Below, piece after piece: positions 1 through 64,000 of a stretch of 64,000 bases of DNA. Made by a program: the position numbers and the translations under genes. How positions within the stretch are numbered: the stretch's first letter is position 1; each line of letters opens with the position of its first letter. The stretch comes from Dactylorhiza incarnata (lineage: Eukaryota; Streptophyta; Magnoliopsida; Asparagales; Orchidaceae). Location of the stretch: positions 22,674,001-22,738,000 of the forward strand of contig JAWHQI010000004.1 of the NCBI GenBank assembly GCA_033032865.1, in the 5' to 3' direction. The notes beneath the pieces were generated by a model. It did not search any database, had not been told where the DNA came from, and saw only the letters and a list, made by a program, of their open reading frames with translations.

Positions 1-158
1 TTCGTCGAACGCAGCTTTACTGCCATTCGTCGAACGCAGTCCAGAATCGGCGATTTAAATTACAGGCAAGTGACTTGAATCGTGGCCGTCAAATCCAGGG
101 CATTAAATCCAAGGGATGGGATTTATTTCTGGGTTTTCTTAGGGTTTGTCAAGAGGAG

Positions 159-169
159 TATATATATAT
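159..169 (+). promoter_or_regulatory. TATA box of the family S LTR copy
   Basis: A TATATATATAT run stands in GC-richer sequence, about 120 bp downstream of the two TCGTCGAACGCAG motifs and well before the LTR end. This is the expected U3/R layout. The assignment rests on position and sequence only. Confidence 0.45.
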
Positions 170-468
170 CCTCTTTAACTTGTACACTTTATCTTCTTCA
201 AGCGTGAGAAAGTAGGAAGCCGACAAAAGATCTTATTGGATGTTGGTTGCAGGTGCAGGTGAGGCTAGCAGGAAATAGCGGGCGCTGGCCCTTTTGCTGT
301 GTTGGCCCTCGAAGGACAGTCTCTTTTCTGCTTTTCATGTATTGCCGGCCTGGGTGCCGATTTATGTTTTGAGTTTCTATACATTTGATAAATGTAAGGC
401 CTTAAGGCCGTAACTCTATTTGTTTCATTTCTGGGATAGTGGACAATTCTAAAAGATGTTTAATCTAA

Positions 469-663
469 GGCTTCGTTTGGTTCGGCTTATTTGCTCCGGT
501 GAGTTTGGACAAAAACGTCATAGGCATACCAAACATTTTATGCTTATAACTAGTTTCTTTTTTTGATAATGGTAGTAATATTTGTCATACCAAACATACA
601 TTATATGCCAATGACGATTTTGTCCAAACTCACCGGAGCAAATAAGCCGAGCCAAACGAAGCC
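469..663 (+). mobile_element. Tourist-like (PIF/Harbinger) MITE, 195 bp
   Basis: The ends form a terminal inverted repeat of about 60 bp; the outer 46 bp have one mismatch and begin GGCTTCGTTTGG. The element is flanked by a 3-bp TAA duplication (466-468 and 664-666), the hallmark of PIF/Harbinger elements. It has no coding capacity. The paralogous LTR near 58345 has the empty site, running straight from AAATCTT into ATGCTTCCGCT. High TIR identity suggests a fairly recent insertion. Confidence 0.88.
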
Positions 664-839
664 TAAATGCTTCCGCTTACGCTTTTTATACTCTCGTGTA
701 GTTGTTGTTCTTTTCTGATTATCACCTTATAATGCCTAGCTAGTGTGTATAGTATGGCGTGGTGTCCCGGCTGGACCTACTGTTATATTATTTGTACTGG
801 TAGGGTGTTATAGCTTACTATGCAGAAATCCCGAATGGA

Positions 840-1016
840 ACAATAATACCCACCATAGGAGACTTCGTACTCTCCATTCACGTAGGGAGACTTCCAGAAC
901 CGGTCCAATACAACGTCCAGTTCATGATCATAGAAGATGATTCACCGTATGATGCGATATTTTTAGCATCCTACTTGACACGCTGCAGCATGACACCTCC
1001 ATGCCGGGCCGCATGG
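840..1016 (+). pseudogene. Degenerate Ty3/gypsy retropepsin C-terminal fragment
   Basis: One frame reads GDFVLSIHVGRLPEPVQYNV followed by VQFMIIEDDSPYDAIF. This resembles the C-terminal half of Tat-lineage aspartic proteases, where a strand ending FxVxDxxSPYNAI precedes LGRPxL. The catalytic DSG part is absent and the expected LGRP is not preserved. No RT follows. It is probably a scrap of an older element cut off by the family S LTR on its left. The lineage call is tentative. Confidence 0.4.
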
Positions 1017-1559
1017 CGAGCAAAGGGAAAATCCTCCAAATCTCAGTTTGTTACCTCAGCGTCGCAAGGACCGAGGTTCCATGGATTAGCCATGGGCCCC
1101 GACAAAGCTTGAATCCCAAGAAGCTTTGCCCAGAGAAGAGCCACGTGGCCCCAACACCGATAACATACATAAATCTCCCGACATCAATCAATCCATGAAA
1201 ACTCGAAACCGTGTGTCGGAAGAGAAAGGGACAATGACCGAGGCCGGTTGGCCTAACTAGATCCAGTTGGTCCGTCCCCGAGGGCTGATGAACCAAAACA
1301 CCCGGGTCTACACCCCGTAAAATTCCTCACAGGTGCATATCTTATCTGTAATCTACAACAACAAGATTGTCAAGTGGCCATGACCGCTCCCTCACAATAC
1401 TGGAAATCAGTTCTAGATTTGTGACTTTCACAGGGGCCTAGGGCACCATTCGAAGCAATGCATATGCTTGAAGGACAAAATCGAGCACCTCGTCCAGTTG
1501 GGGCACCTTAAGGCCTTTCACAAAACAACTCAGAAACAAGCAGCTCGGTAAAAGGCAAC
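1017..1559 (+). other. Old gypsy-derived sequence, no intact gene
   Basis: There is no open frame of note. At about 1467-1520 one frame reads LKDKIEHLVQLGHLKAF, which resembles the gag region before the zinc knuckle of Tat-lineage elements. It lies downstream of the protease-like fragment although gag should come first, so the remnants look rearranged. The rest (1017-1440) shows nothing I can assign. Confidence 0.3.
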
Positions 1560-1938
1560 TGTAACGCCCCTGATTTTCGTTAATTATTTACGTGGCCGCT
1601 GTGACGTAGTTTTGGCATAAGGGCGTTACGTCAGCTCGTCAGGTTTAGTTTTGAGCCTTAGCTTAGTTAAAGCTTGTAATTTATATCGAGCGCGCGAGTT
1701 TTCGTGTCGTTTTGAATTGTAGAGGAGATTCTGTGTAGATATTGAGAATTTAGCTTCGGGAAGCTTTTTGCCCGAGTTTGGCTCGTCGGAACTGAATTCT
1801 GACTTCGCCGTTGGATTCGTAGCACTGTGTCTTAGTTAAGGTGCGAATTTTGTAGAAATCCGAGGTGATCTAGTTTCCCTCGCGGTTTTAAGTAAATTGG
1901 GGAATATTTAATTATTTAAATATTAAATTAGGTTTTAG

Positions 1939-1945
1939 TATAAAA
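1939..1945 (+). promoter_or_regulatory. TATA box of the Tekay-A LTR
   Basis: TATAAAA follows a long A/T-rich stretch and is followed by a pyrimidine-rich leader. In the reverse copy the equivalent is near 22245 (TATATATAAACC on the + strand). The TCTCGAGA array lies downstream of this box, so it should be transcribed. Confidence 0.45.
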
Positions 1946-2454
1946 CCTAATGATCCTTTCCCTATTCACCTTCTTCTCCATCGGCCCCAAATCAGCCGCC
2001 GAGCGAAAGAGCGAGAGCGGAGCTTCGAGGAGCGTTCGGTTGGCGATTCCTAAGGCTGTGGTGGTCGGAATCGCGTTCAGAGGGTAGATTTGGAAAGCTC
2101 TCGGCGAGATCCTCATCTTCGAGGTAAGCTTTTCCCGTTTGAGGAGTTTTTTGGAGTTAGGGTAGTGACCTAACCCCTTCTTTCGACCCGAAAAGTTTCA
2201 AGAATCTGTGCTCGTGTGTTTTCCTGGCCGATCCATAACTTCCGGAGCGAAGATCTTCGAGTTTGCAAGGTTAAGGCAAGTGGCAATTTCTTTCTCCTTC
2301 TCTTTGATGTTGGAGTGTTGTTTCCTACTTGAGTTTGTATTGCATTATCTCAACTCTTGATCTTGGAGTGTTGCTTGGTTGAATTAACTCTTAGTCCCTT
2401 TGGAGATCTCCCTAAATGTCTATTTCTTTTCCCTCATACGATTCTCTGCAGCTT

Positions 2455-2925
2455 CTCAAGAAGGCCTCCTCAGGTTTCTCGAAAAGTGCCTAGTTGTACT
2501 CCCTTCTTACTCTTGAAAAAGACCAGTTTCCTCGAAAAGAGTCAAGTCTAGTTCTCGTGAAGGACCAGCCTTCTCGAGAGGTTTTCAGCCTTGTTCTCGA
2601 GAAATGCCTTAATTTCTCGAGAGATCCCCTGTCCTGATCCCTAAATTTTTTCTCGAGAGGTGCTATTGCTCTCGAGAAGTCCAGTGTTCTGATCCTAACC
2701 TCTCGAGAAGTCCCCTCCCGAGAAGTCCTCTCTCTCGATAAATCCCTGCACCTCTTGAGAAGTTCCCTCTCGAGAAGTGTCTCTCCCTCTCGATAAGTGT
2801 TCTCTCCCTCTCGAGAAGTCCCTGTCCTGCTCTTGAGATTCCTGCTGATAACCCCTTTGTTTTCTTTTGAGAAGCCCTTTTACCTTCCCTCGAGAAGTGT
2901 CTTCTCCTTCTCGAGGAATGCCTGC
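2455..2925 (+). repeat. Array of CTCGAGA palindromes in the Tekay-A LTR
   Basis: The stretch has about twenty degenerate copies of YTCTCGAGARG, built on the perfect 8-bp palindrome TCTCGAGA and separated by 8-30 bp of variable, pyrimidine-rich sequence. The homologous array in the reverse-oriented solo LTR is at 21295-21716. Copy number and spacing differ between the two, so the array has expanded or contracted since they diverged. Confidence 0.85.
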
Positions 2926-3581
2926 TTTGTGCCCGTAGTCATGATTACTTCTCCCATTTTGAAACCTCGTAATTGTTGTGGTTAAACCAATTGATAAGTT
3001 CTCTTATGTTTAGTATTGGAAGAATGTTTACCTTGTTGTGACCCTACTTCTTAGGGCATCCTAGAGGTTACCCTTTCAGGCAGCATCCCGTGTTTGTTTG
3101 AAAGTTAATTAATAAGAACCATTGTCTTTAGCCTTACACAGTAGTTGTGTTTGGGGGACAGTGGGTGAAATGTTATAGCCTTGCACGGTAGTCGTGTTTG
3201 GGTGGTTGGGTCTAGAGTACCCCCACCCGGTTTTTTTTTGGGCTTTGGGTGGCGGAGGTAGATAACGGCTCCCGTTTAATTGAGCTGATCAGTCTCTTTA
3301 AATGTAATCAACAAAATAAATGAACTTGTTTGTTCCTCTTTTGGTATATAGTGCACTCGATGCTTGCTAGTTCTTTGTTTGGAGCTTCTTTTCGGTAAAT
3401 ATGGCTTGGGTTGGTACCCCTTGTGCCTTATTTACTTTGCTTCTTGTTTTATTTATGCCACTTGTGATTCCTTGCTGAGGCGTTCTTGTTTTATTGAATG
3501 ACTCAGGTTCAGGGCCGTAGCGGTTAGTGGTGTAGCCTGAAGTCTTCGGGAGTTCTTAGCTGCTGTTTACCCCGCTACTGC

Positions 3582-3590
3582 GAGTCTTCT
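3582..3590. other. Recombination junction between the Tekay-A LTR and SIRE-A
   Basis: Left of this point the sequence follows the Tekay-A LTR; right of it, the SIRE-A LTR (compare 13655-13670). Both parental sequences share a few bases (GAG/GAGTC) at the join. About 980 bp of the SIRE-A 5' LTR, the left part of N's LTR and the end of the Tekay-A LTR are all missing, as expected for an illegitimate-recombination deletion. Confidence 0.65.
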
Positions 3591-4070
3591 CTGAGCATCT
3601 TGACAGATAAGAACACTATAAACTCTTTCTTACCTCTCTTGTACAGGGTTAATACTCCCTTCAAAAGTGTACCTCCTTGGTGGCAAGACACCTGATCAAA
3701 AAATCTAGTTGGTTTTGAGCACCTGAACAAAAGCTCTGTGGTGTGTGGACACCTGAACAAAAATCCCTTGGTGTGAGGGCACCTGATCAAAAATCCTAGT
3801 GGATTCCTACCAAGGGTGGTAGAAGAGTAGACGTACCCAGATTTATTGGGGAACTACTATAGCTCCTTGTGTCTTCTGTGTTTGGTTATTTTCTGTGCTT
3901 GTGCTGTTTGTTGTGTGATTTCATTTACTTAATTTTTCTGTTAATATAATTCTCACACTGCTTACACTTATATATAATACTATTTTGATTCCGCTATAAA
4001 AACTAAGGAAAAGTTTTAATACTCTATTCACCCCCCTCTAGAGTAACTTAAGATCTAACCTCCACTTTCA
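3587..4070 (+). repeat. SIRE-A 5' LTR, last 484 bp only
   Basis: It matches 13661-14146 nearly base for base, starting at GAGCATCTTGACAG and ending at ACCTCCACTTTCA, immediately before the primer site. It includes a run of short units on the pattern CACCTGAWCAAAAAT (about 3680-3800), also present in the 3' LTR. The promoter half of the LTR is lost. Confidence 0.92.
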
Positions 4071-4072
4071 AT

Positions 4073-4084
4073 TGGTATCAGAGG
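4073..4084 (+). promoter_or_regulatory. Primer-binding site, initiator tRNA-Met type (SIRE-A)
   Basis: TGGTATCAGAGG lies 2 bp after the LTR end and matches the initiator-Met primer site TGGTATCAGAGC except at the last base. It marks the start of minus-strand DNA synthesis and fixes the 3' end of the 5' LTR. Confidence 0.9.
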
Positions 4085-4184
4085 TAGGTTGATCTCACTT
4101 ACAGACTAACATCTGGATCACAAAGATCAATTAGATCTTAATTTAATTTAGAGTTTCTCTTTATCTATTTTCTGTTTAAAACTC

Positions 4185-6236
4185 ATGGCACAAAACAAGG
4201 AATACTCAAGCACAAGACCTCCTATGTGCAATCTTAGTAAGTTTGCACTGTGGAAAGCAAGGATTAGGCTTTACATGAATTCTATTGATGAGGATATATA
4301 TAATTCTATTTTGACAGGACCTCCACCAGCACAAGAACAATCATCAACCAATGCTGTACCTCCTCTAGGACACATAGATCCATTGAAGAAATACAAGAAT
4401 GCAGATGCCAAAGCAATGAATATATTGGCACAAACCATGTCAGATGATATATTCCAAAAAGTTGCTGAGTGCACTTCAGCAAGAGATATATGGAATACCC
4501 TAACTGCAATTGTTGCAGGTTCTGCTGATGAAAGGAAAGACAGAAGATCACACCTGATCTCTCTGTATGAGAACTTCAAGAAAGGTAATGAAGAATCAGT
4601 TGCAGACATGTACACTAGGTTAAGTGTAATTATAAGTGAACTCAGGACTCTTGACAAGGAAATCTCATTAACAGAGATTAATGACAAGATCCTAATGTGC
4701 TTCCCTAGCACTTGGGATTCAAGGATCTGGCCAATCAAGGAAGCCAGAAGTCTCAATGAGATCACCACTGAAACTTTGTTGGGAAAGCTCAAATCTTATG
4801 AGCAGCTCATCAAGTTCAGGGAAGCTGAAGCATCCACTTCATCTCCAGCACCAAAGAAAGAGAAGAGCATAGCTTTCAAGGCAGCTGATGCAGAACAAGA
4901 AAAGGCTCCAAAAGATGATGAACTCATGAGCCTCATAGCCAGAAGATTCTACAAAATGGCTAAGAATGATTTCAGAAGGAAAGAATCCAGATCAAGAGAT
5001 AAGCAAAGGTATGACAAATCAACTCCTAAAGAAGTTATTTGTTTTGGTTGCAGGAAATCTGGACACTACTTGACAGAATGTCCAGAGAAGCAAAAGAAAG
5101 ATAAGAAAAAGGATAAAGAAGAAAAGAGAAGCTCCAGCATGTCTTCCTCCCACAAGCACAAAAAGAAGGGAAGAGGATTTATAGCAGAATCCTGGAGTGA
5201 CACTGAATCTGAATCATCATCCAGCTCATCTGATGATGATGAAGAAAATTCAAAGGAAAATGACCAATGTCTTATGGCCATTTATGACTCAGACAGTGAG
5301 TCAGGAAATTCTTCTTCAACCAGTGATGATGAATGCTATGAAGAAGATAAGAACTTCTGCATGATGGCAATCAATGCCTCAGCAAACAATTCTGATGAAG
5401 AAGAATCAGAATCAGAAGCAGAAGATAATGCAGACCAGGTAATATCTAGTTTTGATTTCAATTCTAGTGAATTCAAAGATGAATTCAAAGGTCTTTGCTT
5501 AGATTTAATCAAATCTGAGAAAGAAATAATCTCTCTCAGAAATTAGTTGGCTGAAATGAATCAACTGGTGGCAGAAAATGTTAATCTTAAGAAAGATTTA
5601 ACTGCCTCTAGAGAACACATTATTCTCATTGAGAACAAGTTGTCTAAAGCTAAGGAATATGAAGAATTCCTCAATGGCAGTAGTGTTAAGCTGATGGACA
5701 TCACAAAAACAGTGAATGCTAGATTTAATAGCAAGCTGAGTTTGGGTGCATCATCAAGTGATCCATACCTTCTTAAGAAAAACATCCTCTCTACTCCAGT
5801 GATATTCAATTCTACTAAGAGCAAAGAGGCTGTAGAAATGAATAAAGATGTTTCGATCAAGTTTGTAGAGAATAAAAGAATTCAGAAGAATTCGTCGAAC
5901 GAAGCTCGACAAAAAGATTTCAATCCGTCGAACGGCGATCGACGAAAACTGAAAACAGATTTTCAGTATAGTAATTACATACACACTGTTCGACGAAATC
6001 AAGCACATTCGTCGAACGACAATCGACAAATTTACTCAAATCCGTCGAACAAACACTATACACAGAATTTCAGGAATTCTAATTCTAAACACACTAAAAA
6101 TCCTTTTACTGAGTGGACAATACCTCCAAGGAGATATCATCCCAAAGGCTATAAGGATCAGCCTGAAATGTCGTTTATTTCAGATTTCTGTGGAGATACA
6201 AAAAGACCCAAGGTAATCTGGGTCAGGAACAAATAG
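4185..6236 (+). pseudogene. gag: SIRE-A gag (capsid-nucleocapsid) with one in-frame TAG
   Basis: Copia gag, which forms the virus-like particle. The ATG at 4185 follows a short leader. The N-terminal part reads LSKFALWKARIRLYM, matching the copia capsid domain. A zinc knuckle CFGCRKSGHYLTEC (CX2CX4HX4C) lies at about 5041-5082, followed by Lys-rich and then Ser/Asp/Glu-rich acidic stretches, as in Sirevirus gag. A TAG at 5544-5546 interrupts a coiled-coil region that continues in the same frame to 6236; CAG (Gln) is the likely ancestral codon. The context is not the CARYYA readthrough type, so I read it as decay. The C-terminal part contains the hairpin array at 5891-6054. Pol follows in another frame. 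Confidence 0.85.
5891..6054 (+). repeat. Hairpin-unit array inside the gag reading frame
   Basis: Three complete units and two partial ones. Each complete unit is a 5- to 7-bp stem, TTYGTCG pairing with CGACRAA, around a loop of exactly 9 nt beginning AACG (for example stems 5891-5897 and 5907-5913). Because the array is coding, gag carries a matching repeat on the pattern (P/S)SNxxR. The same units recur at 9485-9694 and, in related form on the other strand, in the LTR at 12828-12990. Confidence 0.8.
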
Positions 6237-6261
6237 GTTTGTTTTGTCTTTGTTTTTGCAG

Positions 6262-9200
6262 GTACACAGCTGTCCAAGAACAAGTGAAAAATGTTATTTG
6301 GACAGTGGCTGTTCAAAGCATATGACAGGGAACAAGTTAAACCTGAACAGCTTCAAGGCAAAGCTTGGACCAAAAGTTATATTTGGAGACTCCAACTGTG
6401 GACAGACCAAAGGCTATGGAAAAGTCAAAGTTGGAAAAGTCACCTTCAAAGAGGTAGCCTATGTAAAGGGACTGAAGCATAACCTTATCAGCATAAGTCA
6501 ATTATGTGATGAAGGGTATCAGGTAACCTTTAATATATTGAAATGCCTTATTAAATCTACTGATGGTATTACTATTTTATCAGGCATTAGACAAGGTAAT
6601 ATATACTTAGTAAATTTCAATTCATCCACTATAGAAGTCTGTTTATTTAGTGATACAAGTAAATCTAGTGATCTTTGGCATAAGAGACTAGGACATGTAA
6701 ACCTTAGGACCATTGCTAAACTATCTAAGGACAAACTTGTTAGAGGTTTACCCTTAGGATCATATAAGAAAGAAGGATTATGTAGGGCATGTCAACTAGG
6801 CAAGCAAACTAAAAACCGCTTTAAATCATTATCTAAAAGTGATTCACCTAGAATCTTATATTTGCTACATATGGACCTTTTTGGACCTATAACAACAAAG
6901 AGTTTAGGGGGGAAGTCTTACTCTCTAGTTATTGTGGATGACTTCTCTAGATTCACTTGGGTGTTCTTTTTGAGAGAAAAGTCAGATAACTTTAAAGTTC
7001 TTACAGACTTTCTTAAGAGCATAAAGATTGAGTACTCAACTGAAGTTGCATTGATTAGAAGTGATCATGGCAGTGAGTTTGAGTCTCTTCTTATGCAAGA
7101 ATTCTGTGAGATGGAAGGTATCAGGCATTGTTTCTCAGCTCCTAGAACTCCTCAACAAAATGGGGTAGTTGAAATGAAAGATAGAACTCTAATTGAAACA
7201 GCAAGAACATTGCTTGCAGATGCTAATTTGCCCCTATACTTTTGGGCAGAGGCTATCAGCACAGCAAATTATGTTCTGAATAGAAGATTGATACACAAGC
7301 TTAAGGGAAAGACTCCTTATGAATTACTTAACGGGAAGAAACCTAAAGTTAGCTATTTTAGATCATTTGGGTGTAGATGTTTCATTCACAATAATGATAA
7401 GAAATATCTTAGAAAATTTGACCCAAAATCAGATGAAGGAATTTTCTTAGGATATTCAATAACCAGCAAAGCATATAGGATTTATAATAAATCTACCCTC
7501 AAGATAGAAGAATCTATGCATGTTACTTTTGATGAGACTAACATGTTTTACAAGGAGAAGATTTCTTCTACCATAAAAAATCTGCAGGTACCTATATTAT
7601 GTGAGCAGCTAGATCAATTAGCTCTACATAAAGAAGGAATTCTGAATCCTGAACAGCAGAATGCTGAGGAGAGTGAAGAAGAAAATCTCCCAGATTTTGT
7701 TGAAAGTTCAGAACAGATAACAACAGATAATCCTCCACAGAATATAGCAGCTGAACAAATTCGCCAAATGGAAATTATTGCTGAACCAACTCCAACTGTT
7801 GACCACATCACAGTTAGAGATCATCCAATATCACAAGTAATTGGTGATATTTCAGCAGGTGTGCAAACAAGGAATCAAGTACATCAGAACTTGATGCACA
7901 CATGCTTTCTCTCCCAGATTGAACCTCAAACTATAAAAGATGCAGAACAAGATCCCAACTGGATCATTGCTATGCAAGAGGAACTCAATCAGTTTGAGAC
8001 AAACAAAGTATGGGATTTGGTTCCTAGACCAAAAGACCATCCAGTGATTGGCACCAAATGGGTCTTCAGGAACAAACTAGATGAACAAGGCAACATTGTA
8101 AGAAATAAAGCAAGACTGGTAGCCCAAGGATATTCACAAGAAGAAGGGATTGATTATGATCAAACCTTTGCTCCTGTTGCAAGACTTGAAACAATCAGAA
8201 TATTTCTTGCATTTGGTGCATACAAAAAGTTCAAGGTATATCAAATGGATGTAAAGAGTGCTTTCTTGAATGGGGAAATCAAAGAAGAAGTATATGTGGA
8301 ACAACCCCCAGTTTTCCTCTCTCCAACTCAACCCTCTTTTGTATTTAAGCTTAAGAAAGCTCTCTATGGTCTCAAACAAGCTCGCAGAGCATGGTATGAA
8401 ACTTTAGCTAGTTTTCTTTTGGAAAACAATTTCTGTAGGGGTTTAATAGATAAAACCTTATTTTTCAGGATACATAAAAATTAAACTCTGCTAGTTCAAA
8501 TATATGTAGATGATTTTATTTTTGGATCTACTGATTCAAATTTGTGTAAAAGATTTTCAAATCTAATGCAATCTAAATTTGAAATGAGTAGTATGGGTGA
8601 GTTATCATACTTCCTTGGTCTCCAAGTGAAGCAAACTTCAAATGGAATCTTCATATCCCAATCTAAGTATGCTAAGGAATTAGTGAAAAGATTTGGTATG
8701 TCAGATTCTTCCACCATGAAAACACCCATGCCCTCAAATGTTGTTGTTGATAATGATGAATCAGGGAAACCTGTTGATTCAAAAGTATATAGAGCAATTG
8801 TTGGCTCATTACTCTATTTAACAGCAAGTAGGCCTGACATAATGTTTGCTACTTGTATTTGTGCTAGGTTTCAAGTTAACCCCAAGGAATCTCACTTAAT
8901 TTTGCTAAAAAGGATTTTGAGATATATAAAGGGTTGCCCTAATCTAGGACTTTGGTATCCAACAGCATCTGAATTTGAATTAACTGGATTCTCAGATTCA
9001 GATTATGCTGGATGCAGAGTAGACAGGAAAAACACATCAGGGACTTGCCAATTCCTTGGTGATAGGCTTGTGTCTTGGTTTTGTAAGAAACAAACATCTG
9101 TGTCAACATCAACAGCTGAAGCTGAATATATAGCTGCTGGCAGTTGCTGCTCACAGATATTGTGGATACAAAATCAACTTCTAGACTATGGAGTCAACTT

Positions 9201-9456
9201 AAATAATTCAACTATATTTTGTGACAATACTAGTGCAATATCTATAGCACAAAATCCAGTTCTCCATAGTAGGACTAAACACATAGAAATTAGGCACCAC
9301 TTCCTTAGGGATAATGTGGATAAAAATAAAATTTGCCTACAATTTATTCCTACTGATTTATAAAGAGCTGACATTTTCACCAAGCCATTGGATGAAAAGA
9401 AGCATATCTTCTTTATAAATCAACTTGGAATGATAGATGGAGACTCAATCTGCTAG
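6262..9456 (+). pseudogene. pol: SIRE-A pol: protease, integrase, RT, RNase H
   Basis: The domain order protease-integrase-RT-RNaseH is copia-type. Protease: DSG at 6301. Integrase: HKRLGH...CRACQLGK zinc domain near 6676-6810, then Asp 6874, Asp 7063 and Glu 7171, with 35 residues between the last two (D-D35-E). [12 protein letters not shown] near 8245 and the catalytic YVDD at 8503-8514. RNase H: SDSDYAG, AEAEYIAAG and ADIFTKPL near the end. A TAA at 8482-8484 lies just before YVDD, and a TAA at 9361-9363 replaces a residue just before ADIFTK (Gln CAA expected). All parts are otherwise in one frame. The first 25 nt after the gag stop (6237-6261) look like a tiny GT...AG segment, too short to be a normal plant intron; pol is offset in frame from gag. 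Confidence 0.92.
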
Positions 9457-9484
9457 TAAATTAAGTTCTCTATTTACCTCAAAA

Positions 9485-9694
9485 ATTTGTCGAACGGAGA
9501 ACGACGAATTTATATCATTTGTTGAACGGTGGTCGACAAAACCTTATATTTTCAGAATCGATAAAGAAATGTTACCTGCCGAACAGCGGTCGACGAAAAG
9601 GATATTTTTTTGTCGAACGCTGTCTGACAAAAACTTAAAGTCTTTTCGGCTTCTGTCTTTATCAGGGTTAGTTGCTGAACGCCGCTCCACAAAT
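9485..9694 (+). repeat. Hairpin-unit array between pol and the accessory ORF
   Basis: Five units at roughly 40-50 bp spacing, each a 6- to 7-bp stem of the TTTGTCG / CGACAAA type with a 9-nt loop starting AAC. Both stem and loop length are kept although the loop sequences vary after AACG. The array ends about 17 bp before a TATA box and 120 bp before the accessory-ORF ATG, which suggests a regulatory role. Confidence 0.82.
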
Positions 9695-9710
9695 GCGCCT
9701 CTTTCTCTCA

Positions 9711-9718
9711 TATATATA
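9711..9718 (+). promoter_or_regulatory. Putative internal promoter TATA box for the SIRE-A accessory ORF
   Basis: TATATATA directly follows the hairpin array and precedes a pyrimidine-rich leader. A good 3' splice site (CTCTTTTGCAG) stands 8 bp before the ATG at 9814, so the message may be spliced from an upstream exon. No experimental support can be read from the sequence. Confidence 0.45.
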
Positions 9719-9813
9719 TTTACTACTTGTATTTCTTAAGAGCGCGCCTACAGAAATCGTTTCCCTCCAGTTCCCCTTTTGCACTTGATCTTTCTCCTCT
9801 TTTGCAGGACTCA

Positions 9814-12463
9814 ATGGCGATTTCTCAAGCCTCGCTCTATTCCATGAAGTTCGATGCTGGGTTTGACATAGATATGGAATCCTTCGCAACATCTGATCAA
9901 ATCTTCAAGGACATCCTTCAACTCTTTGAAAAGCAATTGTTGAGGAAGTTAATGAGCTTGAGGATAAAGCTTCACACAGCTGAAATCAATGAATGGTGTT
10001 TCATAGTTAAGCAGGAAGATGAATGTCTGACGGGCACAATCTCAGGACACCAGGTTTCTCTTACCCCTACCATTCTAACTGAAATTTTTGGGCTTGTGAA
10101 TGGTGATGAAGATATTGAAATTAGTTCTGATGAATTTGAAGCAGCTTTAGTCAAAATGGGTCACTCCTCTGGAAACCCTAATCATCTGCTTAAGAAAAAT
10201 CTGTCTTTGGAATATAAATTCTTATCAGATATAGTTGGCAAAGTGTTGTTAGGAAAAACAACAGGACATGACTATGTTAAAAGGCACCAATTTCTGTTGA
10301 TGGTGGCCTTGTTGGAGAAAAAGAAAGTGAACTGGGGATCACTTTTGTTTAATTTGATTAAGAAAAAGATTTCCAAGGAGAATGTTAGCTTTGGAAGAAT
10401 TTTAGGAATTGTTCTGCAGGAAAGGCATCCAGACCTTCTGGTCTCCCCAAAGGTAACAATCAATGCTAGCAAGAAGCTGACCTCAGCTCTCTTTGCTAAG
10501 TGGGAAAAGGGTATTTCCAAAGAAGAATCCAAAGTCAGTCAAGCAAGATTCTGAAGACACAAGGACTTATTCAGTCTCTTCCCTAACCCTTCCAGAAGTT
10601 CCTCCTTTGGTCTCCTCCCTTCCTCTCCCACCTCCTACTACTCAAAGTTTTTCCCCTGCACAATCTCCACCTTTCAATTCTTCTACACATATTGATGACA
10701 TTCCCCCTCCTTCTTTTGATCTCCTCCCTCATCACTCTTCTCCACCTCCATCTCCTACTCATAATGATTCCCAATGCCTTATCCATCATTCTTCTTCTAC
10801 TCATCAAGAACCCTCTCAACAAGGTGCAGATGTCTCAAACATCTTTGTACCAATCTCTATTCCTCCCTCTTCTGAGCCATCCTCCTCTCATTCTCACGAA
10901 TTCACTTATTTAAATCTTTTCTCTGTAGCTGATCAGATACTTGGTCTCATCCTTCCCAAAATAGACCAGTTATTGGATGCAAAACTTGCTCCAATTGTTC
11001 AATCTATTTCTGCTTTATCTGAAAAGATTTCTTCCTTCCCCTCATTTCAATCTGTCCCTTCTTCTAGGGGCCTAGATTCAGGTTTCCCTGAAGCTAGGCA
11101 GGGGGAGATGTCTGATGAAGAAGCTCCAGATGCTCCAGATGCTCAAGCACTTGGAAATTCAGTTCTTCCAATTTCAGAAGAACCAGTTCTACCAGGTCCA
11201 GAAGAAATAAATAATGTTTCTATTAATCCCTCTATAGATTTTATTTATTTGCTTTCTCAGTTTAGTACAGTTCTACCAGTTTTACCTCAACAGCATAATT
11301 ATTCTAGAGCAATTGTCCCATACACTGCTCCAGTTAACGAAGCTCTGTTAAATAAGATAATTAGAAGTTTTGAAGTTAAGATTACAGATACAGTTTTCAT
11401 TCAAGATCAAGCTCTCAGTCAAGAAGAAAAACTAGTTGTAATGTCAGAAGAAGCAATCACAAATTCTGACTTTCCAACTTTTATCTTTGATGAAACTCCA
11501 ATTCCAGACTTTGATGAGATCTGGAAAGCAGAAGATGAAGCTTATGAAGCTGAAGAGCAAAGGATCAAAGCTCTTAAATTGATAGCAGATTTATATGATA
11601 CACCAATCTCTTCTTCTGATTCTGATGAAGAAGATAATGATAGTGATTCTGATGATACACTGTCAAGGAAAAGAAAGAAAACAAAGGCTAAGTCTAAATC
11701 TATCCCCAAGCCTCCTAATCCAGATAATGATATCCCATATTATATTCTCCACAATATCTCTCTTGACAAAGTCTCACATCATTGGATGACACTCTCCAGA
11801 AATGAGCAGAAAAGAAAAAAGAAGTTCAAGAAAACTGGTTATATTCTTGATAATCATGTTAAGTTCAATCACCCTCCTCCTCCTCCAGCAGCAGGATCAG
11901 CAGGGATGTCTTCCTCCTTCTCTAGATCTGCCCCCCAACAGTCTAGGAGATATGAAGGAACTCATAAAAGCTCCAGTGGCTCTCAAAGTTCTACACCAGC
12001 CAGAGCTCCTCCCTCAAGTTCTTCCAGACCAATTTCAGATTACAGATATACTTTTTCAAATGGCTTATTTCACAGCAGAATGAATCTTCAAGATAATAAA
12101 ACCTCAGAGCAGGCAAATGATTCTGTTGAAAGGTCTCCTTCTCCAGAAATTCAAGAAACAGATGAAATAGGTCACATGGCTAGATTCAGAGAATCAGTAG
12201 CTATTGCTCAGATCAATAAAGCTAAGGCTGAAGGTGAGGACCATTCTCAATTTTCTACATTGTCTGAATTCAGAAAGCAAGAGCTTGAAAAGTACAATTC
12301 CAGAAAATTTTTTAATGCTGAAAGATTTTTAAAGAAGTATCCAGCAGCAGTAGTTCTTCCTACTACATCTCAAACAATCATAAGTCCAGAAAATTGCTAC
12401 ATGAGCAAGAATCAAGCTGAAGATCCCAACAGGGAAATCATTTTCAAGCCTTCCTCACAGTGA
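9814..12463 (+). pseudogene. SIRE-A accessory ORF, plant-transposon-protein-like, frameshifted
   Basis: I chose ATG 9814 because it follows a splice-acceptor-like TTTTGCAG and opens the conserved part. The first about 230 residues resemble the C element's ORF (44535-45515): both share a DIVGKxLL motif, then a KKxNWG motif, then GRxLxxxLxxxxPE/D, and end in AKWEK. I place this in the 'putative plant transposon protein' class. A 1-bp frameshift near 10510 joins it to a long Pro/Ser-rich tail with a basic patch SRKRKKTKAKSK near 11670, a likely nuclear signal, and acidic Ser/Asp runs. I see no signal peptide or membrane span, so the 'envelope-like' label sometimes used for Sirevirus third ORFs is not supported here. 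Function unknown. Confidence 0.72.
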
Positions 12464-12652
12464 AAAAGTACAGTTTCAAATTCCTTCTGTCTTTGAACTA
12501 CTTGAATTCAGTATAAATGTTTCTAAACTTAGAGCATTTTATTTCAATATTATCTGCTGAAGCGCTTCAATTCTGTCAGATATATTTCTGCTCTGTTGTT
12601 TATCTTTGTGTTATTTATTATTTGATTTATTTGTCAAATAGTATCCTAACCC

Positions 12653-50957: not shown

Positions 50958-52342
50958 AACACCCCCATACTTGAGTTTTTGCTATTCCAGAGCAAAAGAG
51001 TGAGGAAAGAATTACAAGACATCGATATTATTTCTAATTAACTAAAATTTTATTAAACCATGAATAAGTTAAAGACAAATTTTAGGAATTCAAGAATTAA
51101 GTCATAAGTTATGTTGATAATTTAAAAAGAGAAATTTATTTAGCTAACTACTTCTCAAGATAACTATTTAGCAATCAAAATTATAGAAATTTTCAAACAA
51201 AATTAGATTAAAATTATAGACACTCTAACATAAAAGAAGCTTAAGGAAAAGACACCTACTAAAATACTGCTCTCTTAATAATTTAGTTTAGGACTAGAAA
51301 CAATGAAATTGGCTAGGGATGGGTTTGAACGAAATGGCAAATGAAGAGTTCTTGAATAGAGGTGATGAATTTTATCCTCTCACCTCATTTGAATACGAAA
51401 TTGTATATGCTTAGGAAAATAATGAATTTTATCCTCTTATTTTCCATGCCATATAATCTTTTAACAATTCTCTTCAATCAAAAACCCAAAATGTATATGT
51501 TTTAGATGTAATGAATTTTATCCTCTTACATCATGACATATAATCTTTTAAATGATTTTGGGTGCATATGTTTTAGGAAATAATGAATTTTATCCTCTTA
51601 TTTCCATGACATATGATCTTTTTCTACATTTTTTTTGCCAACAAAGGGTGAGGGGGGGGGGGGGGGGGGAATACTTCTAGTTTATAAATTAAACTATTTT
51701 GAGAGCAACATTTTAGTGGAATGAGATTTCCTAAGATCTTAAAGTTAAAAGTGAATATAATAAAAAAAATCTAAAGATGTTTAGCCAATTTACCACAAAG
51801 TGAAGCTATTTAAAATTAAACGGAGAAGTAGTGCTAAATTAACTCTCTAATCGAATTAAAAACATAAAGTGTTTCTTAAAACTAAATTACTTCAAATTTA
51901 GATTTAACAAATTCTGATCAAATAAAATAATTAGCTAAATTAAAAATGTAGGAATTCTTATAATCGTACCTCAAACTAAATTTCTAGAACATTAAAAACA
52001 ACAAGGCTAGGCGTATTTTTTTTTATTATTTCTTGGACTTCCCAAGGGCTACCCGGTGAAGGGTTCGCAAGGTACTAGGAGCTGTGATGGGAATTCAAGC
52101 CCAAAACGCCCTTTCCAAGAAATTAGATTTTTATAAGTTATATATATATATATTTCAAATAAAAATACAAAAAAAAGCTAAGCTACACCCCCATACTTAA
52201 AATTAAACATTGTCCCCAATGTTTAAAACTAAGTATGAAGAACACTTGAAAATAAATTTTTGTAAAACTGAAATTAAAGATAAGCAAGGGGTGCCTCCCA
52301 AGAGCGCTTTCTTTTTCCCGTCTTTAAGCTAGACGGTTATTG
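50958..52342 (-). other. D 3' non-coding region
   Basis: The polypurine tract is at 50959-50970 on the minus strand. A degenerate repeat with the core ATGAATTTTATCCTCT occurs four times between 51365 and 51605. A G-run of about 20 is at 51650-51669. There is no coding signal. Confidence 0.65.
52035..52129. repeat. D internal direct repeat, copy 1
   Basis: About 95 bp (GACTTCCCAAGGGCTACCCGG to TTAGATTT) is repeated at 53825-53918 with about ten differences. The two copies flank the D ORF. Confidence 0.85.
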
Positions 52343-53731: not shown

Positions 53732-53824
53732 AATAAAAAATAAAAAAATAACAACCTTTACTCAAATGAATAGAATTTTTTTTAATTATATATATTTTTT
53801 GAAAAAGCGGGTTAAATTAGTCCC

Positions 53825-53918
53825 GGACTTCCCAAGATCTACCCGGTGAAGGGTTTGCAAGGTACTAGAGGCTGTGATGGGAATTCAAGCCCAAAGCGTC
53901 CTTTCCGAGAATTTAGAT
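53825..53918. repeat. D internal direct repeat, copy 2
   Basis: Partner of 52035-52129, located in the D leader between the primer site and the ORF. Confidence 0.85.
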
Positions 53919-54018
53919 TGCGCTTTTTAATTTTTTTAAATTTTTTTTAAGAAAAAGGGGGAGAAGAAACGGAATGATAAAATTAATAAATATTTCTTTT
54001 TTCGAAATATCAACCGTG

Positions 54019-54036
54019 TCCCTGGCAACGACGCCA
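54019..54036 (-). promoter_or_regulatory. Primer-binding site, tRNA-Asp type (D)
   Basis: The minus strand reads TGGCGTCGTTGCCAGGGA, two bases from the Athila/Tat consensus, 6 bp inside the LTR boundary at 54043. Confidence 0.88.
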
Positions 54037-54042
54037 AAAACT

Positions 54043-55607
54043 TGATGGTCAAAATTATGCTTGCAAACAATAACGGCAAGTGTACCGCATCGAATGTAGT
54101 ATAAGTTATTAACACAAGGTCGTATTAGACTCGGGGCGGTTGAATACTCTTACTTCGGAAAATCTCTATTATTTTATCGAATAGAATTTGAGAGTGATTT
54201 TGCAAAAGGAATATTAAAATAAGAATTAAAAGAACGATTAGCACTCGATCTTGAATCACCTTGGAGATAAAAATAAGAACGAAGAATAAAAGCGCATTCT
54301 CTTAATAAAATTGCTTTGACCGTGGAGATTCCCGAATTATGAATGCACCTCTCTCGAGGATGCACTCACCTGAGTTTAGGTTGATCAATCGAACTCTCGT
54401 TCTAGAATCGAAACCCCTAAAACTCGCCTTATCGAAGTGAATCCCGCTATTGGCTTTTACTCCAATCCGGAAGGGTAGCATCATCCTCTCTCGAGGATTG
54501 CATTCTACTTTTTTTATCCTTGAATGATCGATTCGCCTTACGAGCTTGTTCGGCTAACTAAAGAACGAAAACAAGAACGAGAATTATAATTCGAAAGTAT
54601 AATCTCATTTCATTAAAATCAAGGATAAATCTTACGCGTTTTTAGAAAAGAGAAAGAGAAATTCTAAATTACTTCAAAACCAATATTATTCCTTGGATCA
54701 TCTCGATCGAGTACCAATAGAGATTTTAGGTACTCATTGAGATTGAGGAATTAAAAGAAAATAAAAGAAATACATGAAGAGGTGCGAGAAAAATAAGAGA
54801 ATAGAACTATTTTATTAATTACAATTGAAAAGAAATACAAGCTAGAAATTGAAAATTACAACTATTGAAATAAAAGAATAACTACAAGACTACTAAAACA
54901 TGAAAATAAAACAAGAAATGGAGATTTGAACTCCCAAAATTCGTCCCTGAAGATCTGGAGAAGCTCCCTTTATATAGCTGAAAAGTTGAGGTTACACGCC
55001 CTTGGTCACGCCCGTGACCAAGGGCGTGTAAGGGGCGTGATCGAAGCAGCAGCGGAGAGGGCGCCTTCTGGAGTAATTGCGAGCATTTCGGCCGTGTCAC
55101 GCCCTAGGTCACACCCGTGACCTGGGGCGTGTAATCTTGAAATAGTGCTGCTGGCGGGAAGAAGCGCGGGGCGAGTCACGCCCGTGACCTGATGTCACGC
55201 CATAGGTCACGCCCGTGACCTGGGGCGTGTAACTTTAAATGACATGGCAGGCGTGCTCTGGATGTTGTGGCGAGTCGCGACCGTGACACTGGGTCATGCC
55301 CTTGGTCACGCCCGTGACTTGGGGCGTGTACTTGGCGAATTCTTCACGGAACGCTCCCTGGTGGCGGAATTGGGTCTGGAACACATCTTTGACTGTCACG
55401 CCATTGGTCACGCCCGTGACCTTGGGCGTGTACTTTGGATTTTTACTCAAAGTGCCCAGAAAATCTGCAAAACATAAAATAAGCTTAAATTAGTTAAAGA
55501 AATTAAAAAGGAACAGATTAAATAAGAAAATACATATAAATTATATAAATTCAATTTAAAACTATATTAAAATAATACTAAAAGATGAGTACAAAAAGTA
55601 CTCATCA
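54043..55607 (-). repeat. D 5' LTR
   Basis: Its first perfect hairpin is 54992-55031 (18-bp arms, GCCC loop), and its TATA box TATATAAAG (54968-54976, minus) stands next to the array. Near-identical to the 3' LTR. Confidence 0.94.
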
Positions 55608-55612
55608 AATAT

Positions 55613-56508: not shown

Positions 56509-58486
56509 TGTAACACCCCAAAGATCATGGTTCAGCGAGGTAGGCGGAATGGTAGTGTTGCGCTCGGGATAGGCTCAAGATTCCAGATCAGGTCAATGCG
56601 CACGACCATTATCCTCTTCGCGCACGACCAGTGATCGTGCGCCAGCGATCGTGTGTTAATTCAGAAGAGAATCGAGTTCTGTCTCGGACAGTGCGCACGA
56701 CCATTTCCCTCTTCGCGCATGACCAGTGATCGTGCGCCAGCGATCGTGCGCCCTGTTTATTCTGTTCCGCGATTTTGAGCGGAGAAGAAGATCGGACCGT
56801 CCAAATCTTTTGGAAATTGATCCAGCGGCTAGGTTTAGTTGCGGGAGACATTTAGGGCTGATGAGAGGGGGTTAAACCTCATATTCTCTAAGCCATTCTC
56901 TCTCCAAACCCTAGAGAAAGAAGGAGGAGCCAAGGAAGAAGAAGGGAGATTCCGCCATTGACGGAGCTGCGGAGCTCCGTTTCGCGAACCGTTTCCAGAT
57001 CTGGAGAGTGCAGCCCGGTGCGGTCTTTTCCCTCCGTCTAGAATCTCGGATCCATGGCGAAAAAGAACGCTCCTAGGGTAACGATTTCTTCTCCCGTTGT
57101 TTGGACTTGTCTTTTGTCCTCTCCTTCGTTTCTCTATGCTTGCATGAGGGATCCCTTTCACCAAATGGGTGAAGTGTAGGATTCCCTCAAGTTCTCCGGA
57201 ACTCCGGGTCGATTGTGTCCGTCCCCGGCATATTACATGTAGAAAATCCGGTAGTCGTGCGGATTTAGGCATTTTGTGTGAAGCCTATTCGTGGCCGTGA
57301 GCCCGAATCGGTGATGCTTGGATTGCGACGTTGCATTTAGGTTAAGCCTAGAATGCGTGCCGGAGAATGACTCCATGAAATCATCTATAGTATTGCGGGA
57401 TTTAAGTGTAGGCGTCTTGTGAAGATCCTAACGAAAGCCCCATGCTTTGAGATTGGATGAAGGCAAACCTTCACCGTGAAATTGGTGCGGAGCGTATTAT
57501 ACCTCCCCTTTTTGAGTATTTGTGAAGCCTAGATCCTTGTGAAGGGATTAGGTGCGTAGCTTATATTTGTGTAGCACTTGAAGGTGCTAAACCCTTACGG
57601 GCCGAGGCGAAGCCGTACCCGCGTCGTGCGACAGATCGCGACGATTAGAGCACGGGCAAAGCTAAACCGAACCCGTTTCCATGCAGATCGGTAAGAGGTC
57701 CCTACCTCATGTAGCCGTGTGATCATGGGAGAGGTCGTGGAAGGTGGTTTACCTAGACCGACCAAAAGCTCTTTTTCCCACATAAGGCGATGGCCCTTAC
57801 GGTGGAGTGTTTGTGGAATTGATGTTGTTAGCCTCATGCGGTTGTTTAGGCGGTTGCGGGGAACCTTCGGGTGAACCCAACCAACATCATGTGCATACCT
57901 AGGTTCCCTCCTTTTTGATGCTCAACCTACAAGATTGAATGTGCTTGAAACCTCACCTTGTGTAGTTGCACTTTCTTTATTTTAGTACTTGTGCTAGTAT
58001 GGCTTGCTTGCAGGGTAGAATCTCCGCCACCCCGGGAAAGGGGTGGGGTCGTTATAATTTGGTCAGCTGTGCTGACCGTTACCTTGTTTGCCACCGCTTG
58101 GTGGAATGTTCTTATGCAGGTGCAGGTGAGCCTAGCGGGAAATAGCGGGCGGTGGCCCCTTTTGCTTAGTTGGCCCTTGAAGGCCAGCCCCCTTTTTAGC
58201 TTTCTCATGTATTGCCGGCCTGCGTGCCGATGTATGTTTTGGAGTTTTTAGTACATTTGCTAAATGTAAGGCCTTAAGGCCATAACTCTCTTTCTTGGTT
58301 TCATTCCTATGATAGTGGACAATTCTAATGGAAATGTTAAATCTTTATGCTTCCGCTAGTGTTTAGTATACTCTGTTGTAGTTTCTTTCTGTTTATCACC
58401 TTTTAACTCCTAGCTAGTGTGGTTAGTATGGCGTGGGGTCCCGGCCGGACCTACTGTTATATTATTCGTACTGGCAGGGTGTTACA
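56509..58486 (+). mobile_element. Complete family S solo LTR (1978 bp)
   Basis: TGTAACACCC and GGGTGTTACA form a perfect 10-bp terminal inverted repeat, flanked by TCGTG duplications (56504-56508 and 58487-58491). The right 370 bp match 245-812. There is no interior or second LTR. The ends are of the Tekay-like chromovirus type. Confidence 0.95.
56597..56752. repeat. GCGCACGA-TCGTGCGC hairpins in the S solo LTR
   Basis: Two tandem blocks about 95 bp apart. In each, GCGCACGA pairs with TCGTGCGC around the 7-nt loop CCAGTGA (56620-56642 perfect; 56715-56737 with one C-to-T change), followed by CAGCGATCGTG. The other S copy (1-812) has a different motif in its promoter half. Confidence 0.85.
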
Positions 58487-61656: not shown

Positions 61657-61691
61657 TATTCCCAGTGGTGAAACCGTTTTGGAAAAACCTA

Positions 61692-61703
61692 GCTTTGATA
61701 CCA
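61692..61703 (-). promoter_or_regulatory. Primer-binding site, iMet type (E)
   Basis: TGGTATCAAAGC on the minus strand, 2 bp inside the 5' LTR end (61706). It fixes E's orientation. Confidence 0.9.
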
Positions 61704-61705
61704 CT

Positions 61706-62854
61706 TGTTGGATCGTGAGGCGCCCTTAGAGGGGGGGGGGGGGTGAATAAGGGTTTTTAAAAGCTTGATTATTTAATATAAAAACTTTTGTTGTTTTTCT
61801 TTGAAACAAATTTAAATCAAAACTTAAGAGGAGTGAATCAATTTAAAACAAAACAAAAAGAATCGGTTGGCTTTAGCTGATCTTCCCCAGATCCGGCCTC
61901 AGGACGCTCTAGCCTTCCTATACCCAGAAAAGGCCTCCAGCACCCCCTAGATCTACTTCCTAGACCCAGTCGCCAACATGAGTCAAATTGCTCCCTAAGT
62001 CTTACCCAGACCTAGTCACCAACACGAGGCAAATTTACTTCCCAGAAAATAACAAAAATGTTACAAAATATTTGAACACATAAACTAAAAACATCCTCTG
62101 AAAAATTCTAGAGATGACGAAGGCCGCTGAATGTTCTTGAAGTCAAAGTGCGCGTTCTTCACGTTGAGTAAGCGTTGATCCGGTTCTCCTTGAATTCTTT
62201 GCTCGAATATGTGCGGGAGTTGAAGTTCTAGAAAATATGTCTCTGATTGAGTTTCTGGAGACTGGAGTAAGGCTCAAATCAATCAGTAGTCAGAGACGAC
62301 GAAGCCATCCAATTTATAGACTTTAAGCTAACGCCGACGTTAAGTTCTAACGCCAGGCATTGACCATATATATCAACATATTGATGGCTCGGATCTTCAA
62401 AAGAGGAAGGAGATTCAGCACTTTAGGAATTTTTTTATTTTACGCAATACTAACGCCGGCGTTAAGGCTAATGCAGGCGTTGGGCAAATCATTTCTAAAG
62501 TTCCTCCTGCAATCACGGCTGCTTGCTTCATGCCATAATCGTCGATCGAGAACGCCAGCGTTAAGACCTAACGCCTGATGTTGAGTTTCTCACTCTTTTT
62601 ATTCAGTCAGCAAGCCATCCCGTCGATCGACAGACCATCCCGTCGATCGCTAACGCCCATCGTTAAGACCTAACGACTGGCGTTAGACATCATTCAATCC
62701 TTCGGCTTGTGGATAGTGCAAGACCAGTATTGCAGTAACCTGGTGTCATATCTGTCCAAACCTGCATGCTAAAAACACAATGGCAAACAAGATCAAATAC
62801 AAGTAGGATTTATTATTCTCAAATTAAAGGGATGTGGAAAGCCATGTTCCAACA
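61706..62854 (-). repeat. E 5' LTR (1149 bp)
   Basis: It pairs with 38745-40066. It has the perfect 14-bp palindrome TAACGCCGGCGTTA (62451-62464), further TAACGC/GCGTTA pairs and CCGTCGATCGAC units, which end beside the TATA box (TATAAATT, minus, 62311-62318). A poly-G run is at 61731-61742. Confidence 0.92.
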
Positions 62855-62858
62855 GTCT

Positions 62859-62893
<35 letters not shown>

Positions 62894-62930
62894 TTCATCT
62901 TCTACTTCTTCTTCTTCTTCTTATTCTTTT
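62855..62930 (+). repeat. (CTT)n microsatellite
   Basis: CTT/CTTCTT with minor interruptions, in the Tekay-B 3' LTR at the E insertion site. The 5' LTR has a shorter version at 29985-30025. GTCTT (62855-62859) is E's right target duplication. Confidence 0.88.
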
Positions 62931-64000
62931 TATTTGAAAAGCTTGTTTGATTATGTAAGTAAAGGAAAAAAATTAGGTAAATGGTGAGTTTTTTGGTTTT
63001 CAAAGGGTTTAGGGTAGCTGTGTAGAAATTTCTGGGTACTAAGTAAATTCGTCGAGTGAACTCGTGAAGTCAAGTTAAATTCGTCGAGTGAACCCGTGTA
63101 TCCCGCTAAGTATAAGTTAATTTGTCGAGTGAACTCGTGAAATCAAGTTAAATTTGTCGAGTGAACTAGTGTAACCCGCTGAGTATGAGTGAATTCGTCG
63201 AGTGAACTCGTGTAACCCGCTAAGTATAAGTCAATTCGTCGAGTGAACTCGTGTAACCCGCTGAGTATAAGATAATTCGTCGAGTGAACTCGTGTAACCC
63301 GCTGAGTATAAGTAAAATTCGTCGAGTCATCTTGAGTGATTAAGTAAATTTGTTGAGTCATCTCGAGAGGTTTAGTAAAATTCATCGAGTGATCTCATTT
63401 CGTCGAGTGAACACGTGAGGCTAAGTTAAATTTGTCGAGTGAATTCCTGAGGGTGAGTTCTTGTTGCGAAATGGTAAGTTGGAAATGTTAAATATTGTTG
63501 TGCGGTTGATCAGTTTGACCATCACCTCTGAGCCGCACTTATGGACAAGTGGTTGGCCTTGATCAGTTTGACCATCACCTCTGAGCCACACTGACAGACA
63601 AGTGTATGGCCTTGATCAGTTGACCATCACCTCTCAGCCGCATTGACGGACAAGTGCTTGGTTTTGATCAGTTTGAACTTCACCTCTGAGGCGCACTGAT
63701 AAACAAGTGGTTGGCTTTGATCATTTTGACCATCACCTCTGATCCGCACGGACGGACACATGGTAGGTTATGCTCACTTGGTGCTAGTTCCCTTTTATTC
63801 TCGTTTATTGAGCTGACTTTATTGATGTATATTACTCCTATTTCTCTTGCTATCTAGTAATCCTACCTAGTTTTGGTGCGGCTTTCTTGCTCCCCTTTTT
63901 GGACTGAGGCGTTCCTTTCTTTTTGAATGACTAATGTTCAGGTGTATAGCTGAGCTGGTGGTCAGGTGGCCTCTCCCAGGCTCTTGAAGGTCTTGCCTTC
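62860..64000 (+). repeat. Tekay-B 3' LTR, right part, runs off the window
   Basis: It resumes at the position equivalent to 29990 and follows the 5' LTR to the equivalent of about 31085. It includes the CGAGTGAACTCG array (63045-63445) and the five-unit TTGACCATCACC array (63506-63765). The window ends before the position of the 5S-derived units. Confidence 0.93.

Follow-up and report, generated by a model that had tools for sequence, protein, structure and literature searches.

Palindrome arrays in copia and gypsy long terminal repeats of Dactylorhiza incarnata and a candidate RNA hairpin array in a Sirevirus-like family

Palindromic boxes in the long terminal repeats (LTRs) of retrotransposons were presented as peculiar, within Ty1/copia, to Sireviruses, and Bousios and colleagues reportedly described, in 2016, palindromic cis-regions in maize Sirevirus LTRs. 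The RM boxes of Sireviruses are family-specific palindromes that occur in many LTR copies upstream of the TATA box and also in the linker before the ENV-like gene, where the element has one; Bousios et al. 2010 (PMC2829016) call them Sirevirus-specific within Ty1/copia. Related accounts report tandem repeats in the U3 (unique 3') region (PMC3601003), tandem repeats that differ by family and lie after pol and before the 3' LTR in Retand elements (PMC11963269), palindrome-rich regions as small-RNA hotspots (PMC5311732), and an insertion preference for palindromes that is slight at best (PMC6911290). Here we analyze 64,000 nt of the Dactylorhiza incarnata genome (the window: GCA_033032865.1, 3.27 Gb in 3184 contigs; contig JAWHQI010000004.1, positions 22,674,001-22,738,000, forward strand), a stretch of LTR retrotransposons nested in each other. 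Both Ty1/copia and Ty3/gypsy families of this one genome carry palindrome arrays, as an earlier reading of the window from its letters, hereafter the sequence-only reading, had claimed. Elements were mapped by self-comparison, open reading frames (ORFs), Pfam, primer-binding sites (PBS) and boundary inspection, and are named as in Table 1.

The SIRE-A linker array and the arrays of E and of the C U3 region are like RM boxes, and the first lies between pol and ORF3, the linker position described for them, with a dyad count reached by 0 of 25 shuffles. SIRE-A departs from the account in PMC2829016 in two respects: a second array lies inside its gag-side ORF, a place that the available text does not describe for RM boxes, and RM copies are expected in the LTR too, whereas the SIRE-A LTRs hold no TTCGTCGAA cluster and only weak GGTG..CACC units without excess. 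Also unlike RM boxes, similar arrays occur here in Ty3/gypsy LTRs, with one motif common to the superfamilies, and where RM boxes, as that paper presents them, have conserved palindromic arms and a CGG-CCG core, the hairpin array of family C has a fixed loop and variable arms. In their clustered LTR palindromes with strong predicted folding, the arrays are like the palindromic cis-regions of maize Sireviruses. The maize data of PMC10760457 give no obvious Ty3 peak, whereas here D, TekA, the S relatives and other gypsy-type LTRs bear arrays. Our literature search, thin on subscription papers, found neither a fixed-loop covarying LTR array nor palindromes common to superfamilies.

We favor, at a probability of roughly 0.58, a reading in which two things are mixed: most arrays would be cis-regulatory modules, and family C would carry a second array made of RNA hairpins. 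For the former, a dyad-symmetric site would be kept in many copies, as a rule in the part of U3 that precedes the core promoter; host transcription factors would bind these copies as dimers, next to each other, and activate the element. Selection would then keep the arms, as half-sites, rather than the hairpin. This would apply to TekA, D, N, S and the two classes of shared motif described below, class I and class II.

Dyad symmetry was measured by approximate dyads (7-mers, one mismatch allowed, starts at most 24 nt apart) against 25 dinucleotide shuffles per region, with reversed and complemented strings as controls that preserve repetition. None of the shuffles reached the count in TekA (both copies), N, D, S or the two SIRE-A internal arrays, and for the C U3 array this held for one copy, with 1 of 25 reaching the other; in all of these the two controls were lower. 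The excess thus covers five of nine delimited LTR families (TekA, N, D, S and C U3). M dyads exceed shuffles, but the reversed and complemented strings come almost equal (112, 86, 84), which marks A/T low complexity, and E is mixed, with 1 and 3 of 25 shuffles reaching the count and the reversed string as high. Perfect arms of at least 6 nt with loops up to 12, compared with 100 dinucleotide shuffles, were in excess in three of eight LTR families (TekA, D and C, for C in the 5' but not the 3' LTR) and in several internal regions; the LTRs of SIRE-A, M, N, TekB and E showed none. Top words whose reverse complement is a top word too were found, over 20 regions, in TekA, D and one SIRE-A gag word; this symmetry and word pairs without mismatches are too blunt for C and E. 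Of the 85 fold windows that cover 19 listed arrays, three of which are internal, 24 had z < -3, compared with 19 of 342 in other LTR sequence and 31 of 638 elsewhere, a contrast biased upward because the arrays were listed after sequence inspection; the TekB, S and SIRE-A LTR arrays had none.

The sequence-only reading had credited nearly every LTR family with an array and had named a comparison with dinucleotide shuffles as its check, and on both measures the feature turns out to be narrower. The motifs that it quoted exist as strings, by motif counts and direct reading, yet not all of them form LTR arrays: those given for SIRE-A and for G, treated there as a family with an LTR array, are internal, and the units of N, S and E are present but few or diverged.

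The array motifs are not confined to single families, contrary to the claim that their sequences are unrelated: two turn up in more than one family, one even in both superfamilies, and 13 seven-letter words repeated within arrays are common to different regions, against a naive expectation of about 1.7. In the window, TCGTCGA has 31 matches (3.6 expected) and CGTGCG 23 (6.3 expected). Clusters were defined as four or more matches with one mismatch allowed and sought in 264 kb, comprising the window and 200 kb of neighborhood whose loci are labeled L009, L010 and so on. Class I (TTCGTCGAA) gave 21 clusters and class II (GCGCACGA) five; five block-shuffled copies (1-kb blocks) had no cluster of either. 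Class II sites (GCGCACGA/TCGTGCGC) lie in S and other LTRs and share core words with N, although the N array stays below the four-match threshold for GCGCACGA. Class I clusters adjoin copia gag/pol (e.g., L011 and L020) and are also found in LTRs a few kb from a gypsy reverse transcriptase (RT) on the same strand (L010, L019), where order and strand suggest that LTR and RT belong to one Ty3/gypsy element. Class II might correspond to the brassinosteroid element CGTG[CT]G, and TGTCGA-N7-TCGACA in the SIRE-A linker might have an auxin-factor spacing.

Related LTRs can carry different arrays. For about 1.4 kb at the LTR end, S matches the LTRs in L009, L010 and L019 at 81-82%, and its array is class II while theirs consist of class I units (CGTTCGTCGAACGCAG); either array modules were swapped while the remaining LTR was kept, or they were gained by convergence. 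Among S-related LTRs the array looks as if it were a swappable U3 module. In our reading, families of one genome would share or exchange sites, class I among copia Sireviruses and gypsy LTRs and class II among S and other LTRs; if copia and gypsy families do share boxes, this points to a few host factors on which retrotransposons converge or which they trade.

The promoter context agrees in part. A TATA box follows the array after 12 nt in the E 5' LTR, 16 nt in both D LTRs, 20 nt in the class II LTRs of L023 and L024, 125-135 nt in three S relatives, 135 nt in L016 and 195 nt in M. Since the arrays often lie just upstream where the TATA box is clear, binding of dimeric host factors, one of the roles offered by the sequence-only reading, is the best fit for most arrays, with the exception of the C hairpin array; binding and activation themselves are inferred. 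The interpretation given by that reading is supported in part: two of its arrays are internal, and no strict TATA box was found after several others.

Family C differs in kind. Its ORF3 is a homologue of SIRE-A ORF3 (28%, E 3e-17), a CCHC-like motif was read by eye, with weak similarity to SIRE-A gag (E 0.02), and, as in Sireviruses, the junction of polypurine tract (PPT) and 3' LTR reads GGGGGAGAT/TGTTGGG (AT/TG) and a polyC run lies near the LTR 3' end. A Sirevirus should have a Ty1/copia pol, but no pol domain was found in the four ORFs scanned, and with the ORF3 homologue this leads us to call C Sirevirus-like and non-autonomous. Each of its LTRs carries 15 hairpin units on the sense strand, spaced about 21-25 nt apart around the core CTTG[AC]GGG. 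Arm sequences vary among the units (AGC/GCT, GGC/GCC, GGAC/GTCC, GCGC/GTGC, CGAGC/GCTCG, AGGC/GCCT) and stay complementary, so that a fixed loop is accompanied by covariation between units. Units were chosen by loop, not stem, with the 5' LTR loop pattern widened to keep three altered units. Watson-Crick pairs number 52 against 39.2 expected in the 3' LTR and 53 against 39.5 in the 5' LTR (0 of 5000 right-arm re-pairings each); A.C mismatches are depleted (1 and 0 against 7.7 and 6.9), and G.U is near expectation (9 and 9 against 10.5 and 11.5). Reduction to seven unit types leaves an exact permutation p of 12/5040, and pairing is far lower when the partner is slid. An independent count gave 90.4% paired cells against 75.1% (0/500), a covariation of 0.564 against 0.267 (0/500) and 8 further pair types against 5.5 (3/500); pairs changed on both sides were not significantly in excess (3 against 2.1; 164/500).

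The array also stands out without prior selection. Among 2058 approximate-word clusters in the window, 8 of the 10 above z 3 lie in the C hairpin array, and in the same scan of the neighborhood (5785 clusters, 18 above z 3, the largest 3.57) no cluster combined 60% pairing with z above 2.3. When neutral evolution was simulated on random duplication trees, the C excess was never reached (0/1600). A covariance model of the units placed 28 of its 30 matches (E up to 1, 264 kb) in the two C arrays, 15 of these 28 being the units used to build the model, with two weak matches elsewhere. Rfam gave no match for the window at gathering scores, nor for the C array at E up to 1. By the approximate-dyad measure the array shows no excess (25/25 and 14/25 shuffles reach the count), because its arms are short.

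These properties are a signature of selected hairpins, most likely formed in RNA, as far as the sequence tells. The array may lie in R/U5 or in U3, with two candidates for the TATA box in the 5' LTR, TATATA at offset 1397 and TTTAAAAGG near offset 643. By the known LTR life cycle, an LTR array enters the transcript from R/U5 as well as from the U3 of the 3' LTR, and since the genomic RNA contains it either way, the C array most likely acts as folded sense-strand RNA. A protein would recognize it by its loops, for example the Gag of the element that supplies C's proteins: a fixed loop with stems free to change while paired is to be expected where a protein recognizes the loop of an RNA, and partner-Gag recognition would be a natural role for an element with no pol domain found, an ORF3 homologue and a CCHC-like motif with weak gag similarity. 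Structured RNA, another role proposed by the sequence-only reading, fits this one family alone. Retroviral packaging signals are repeated stem-loops recognized through their loops, and the short stems and conserved G-rich loop in genomic RNA proposed for C would be analogous; C is unlike them in having about 15 similar units inside the LTR and no Rfam match. The sequence alone argues here for selection on an RNA structure over a DNA site, as might suit an RNA handle of a non-autonomous element. More tentatively, we propose the two parts jointly: the C LTR would hold a selected array of about 15 UUG[A/C]GG-loop hairpins with freely exchanged stems, a multivalent RNA handle for an autonomous partner's Gag or another RNA-binding protein, while copia and gypsy families share or trade identical palindromic enhancer modules.

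Several results weigh against the reading of enhancer arrays and C hairpins. Approximate dyads are not in excess in TekB (25/25 and 17/25 shuffles reach the count) or in the SIRE-A LTR (12/25), and no strict TATAWAW was found after the arrays of TekA, TekB (before the LTR end), S and N. Arm covariation is slight in TekB (p 0.016) and absent in D (0.20) and TekA (0.76), in a test with little power because the arms are conserved; conserved arms without covariation, as in D and TekA, are nevertheless what dimeric DNA-binding factors select for, and we read these as enhancer arrays. For C, the units are related by higher-order duplication, and an exact-word scan left 7 of 5565 clusters above z 3, not one of them in C, since that scan counts the two spellings of the loop as separate words. 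Polymorphism among copies is likewise equivocal. Across the genome we scored 40 copies of the C array and flanks (89-100% identity, the window's two included; 5798 first-look candidates), about 27 loci by position (13 nearby pairs and 14 singles), found via the array itself, so that copies without it escape detection. A median of 14 of the 15 units per copy keep three consecutive pairs (range 10-15). Variability over the 40 aligned copies was 0.028 in loops, 0.032 in stems, 0.053 in spacers and 0.071 in flanks; loops differ from spacers (p 0.008) and stems do not do so significantly (p 0.14). Of the variants shared by at least three copies, 7 of 8 kept the pair; among singletons 17 of 65 did so (Fisher p 0.0013; 39-44% expected under neutrality). 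Mock stems built from arms of different units partly match this contrast (21/34 against 74/355), from which it follows that much of it stems from the make-up of older variants. The test is compatible with selected stems and is not proof of them.

It is this equivocal polymorphism that lends something to an account of the arrays as functionless by-products of amplification, in which slippage and reverse-transcriptase jumps multiply units, template switching at quasi-palindromes matches arms, and the C covariation is arm-to-arm copying. Many arrays are indeed tandem repeats with higher-order periods, and the TekB array is tandem and shows no excess of dyads. We nonetheless hold it unlikely: arm-to-arm copying does not predict a fixed loop beside diverging stems, nor A.C depleted while G.U is not, and the same motif in copia and gypsy families is left unexplained.

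For C only, the array might instead be read as DNA, as a cruciform or as a monomeric site CTTG[AC]GGG whose flanks are symmetric by chance, and CTTGMGGG does occur 27 times against 3.0 expected, 24 of these in the two C arrays. A plain site leaves the complementary, unit-specific flanks unexplained, a cruciform would treat G.T and A.C alike, whereas the depletion seen for A.C (1 against 7.7) does not extend to G.T (9 against 10.5), and folding beats shuffles in the sense strand only (z -2.79 and -3.84; antisense +0.51 and -0.58), all of which makes DNA quite an unlikely medium compared with the RNA hairpins that we prefer. Repeat-driven silencing, with the arrays as sources of double-stranded or small RNA recognized by the host as has been reported for maize Sireviruses, is improbable: the arrays fold better than other LTR sequence, and PMC10760457 reports that predicted LTR hairpins of maize have more small RNAs and more CHH methylation, but silencing is a cost to the element that alone would not maintain arms, loops or shared sites, and several arrays fold no better than shuffles.

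Table 1. Mapped elements and palindrome or hairpin arrays, with positions in the window unless a neighborhood locus is given.
Feature	Position	Strand	Remarks
SIRE-A	3582-14147	+ (arrays)	copia Sirevirus
N	LTR about 27917-29366	+ (array)	Asp-type PBS at 14814; gag and protease
M	LTRs 18759-22911 (interrupted) and 25871-27175		
TekA solo LTR	19792-22632		inside M; target duplication TTTTC
TekA truncated LTR	1560-3581		
TekB	from 29378, running past window end		gypsy RT
E		-	inside TekB; Sirevirus-like
C	41927-49293	-	inside E; LTRs about 41927-43479 and 47735-49293; target duplication GGAAT
D	49380-55607	- (arrays)	inside E; target duplication AATAT
S	LTR start at 56510		TGTAACACCCC
SIRE-A class I array	5891-6049	+	TTYGTCG/CGACRAA; inside gag-side ORF, not LTR
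SIRE-A linker palindromes	9486-9690	+	TTYGTCG/CGACRAA; before ORF3, not LTR
TekA solo LTR array	21294-21714	-	TCTCGAGA
TekA truncated LTR array	2453-2917	+	TCTCGAGA
N LTR array	28228-28510	+	CGCACG/CGTGCG dyads, diverged, about four units
TekB 5' LTR array	30131-30550	+	TTCGTCGAGTGAACTCG in tandem; dyads not above shuffles
TekB 3' LTR array	63040-63460	+	TTCGTCGAGTGAACTCG in tandem; dyads not above shuffles
D 3' LTR array	50329-50790	-	GGTCACGGGCGTGACC; one hairpin with 19-bp arms; TATATAAA 16 nt downstream in sense
D 5' LTR array	54992-55440	-	GGTCACGGGCGTGACC, as in D 3' LTR
E 5' LTR array	62330-62690	-	imperfect TAACGC/GCGTTA units; CTATAAATTGG 12 nt downstream in sense
E 3' LTR array	39480-39900	-	TAACGC/GCGTTA units, decay greater than in 5' LTR
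S LTR array	56596-56755	+	class II; GCGCACGA..TCGTGCGC, two units
M 3' LTR array	26098-26270	+	inverted repeats of A/T only; low complexity
G array	23466-23733		A/T array; internal to M, not LTR
C 5' LTR U3 array	48790-49160	-	class I; dispersed half-sites TCGTCGA/CGACGA
C 3' LTR U3 array	about 42980-43350	-	counterpart of 5' LTR U3 class I half-sites
C 3' LTR hairpin array	42171-42507	-	15 units, loop TTG[AC]GG, stems vary yet complementary
C 5' LTR hairpin array	47990-48330	-	15 units, loop TTG[AC]GG
Class I arrays of S relatives	L009:7333-7753; L010:4616-5053; L019:2505-2846		

The SIRE-A pol has its best match, among 7994 scored candidates, in the orchid Platanthera zijinensis (74%), and no relatives of it were found in viral contigs. 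For TekA, TekB and S, "chromovirus" is a label only, given by the LTR start with no chromodomain shown. The class I array of SIRE-A falls between gag and pol homology in the window as in two neighboring loci (L011:2776-2934 and L020:8133-8277), and as the window copy lies inside an open reading frame it would be translated too. SIRE-A also has a 42-bp direct repeat in about 2.7 copies at 12871-12989, between the third ORF and the 3' LTR.

Strong local folding also occurs outside the listed arrays, in internal C (46201-46400) and internal D (52741-53101), with z down to about -6. At the D LTR start in sense (50934-50956 and 55584-55606), adjoining the PPT, lies a perfect hairpin with 9-bp arms, GATGAGTAC-5 nt-GTACTCATC, which is among the strongest fold windows (z -6.3 at 55501). 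As regards the class I motif, ATTCGTCGAAC is found inside plant small RNAs, namely miR5564 in a study of cumin (PMC10180537) and two in a study of sugarcane (PMC3464620), an overlap that is probably due to chance and possibly reflects a repeat-derived small RNA. The TekB 5' LTR has a 274-284 bp tandem unit in three copies at 31282-32120, downstream of its palindrome region, and the E 3' LTR a 20-bp tandem unit (CCATCCCGTCGATCGGCATC) at 39787-39861 whose copies exceed those of the 5' LTR counterpart.

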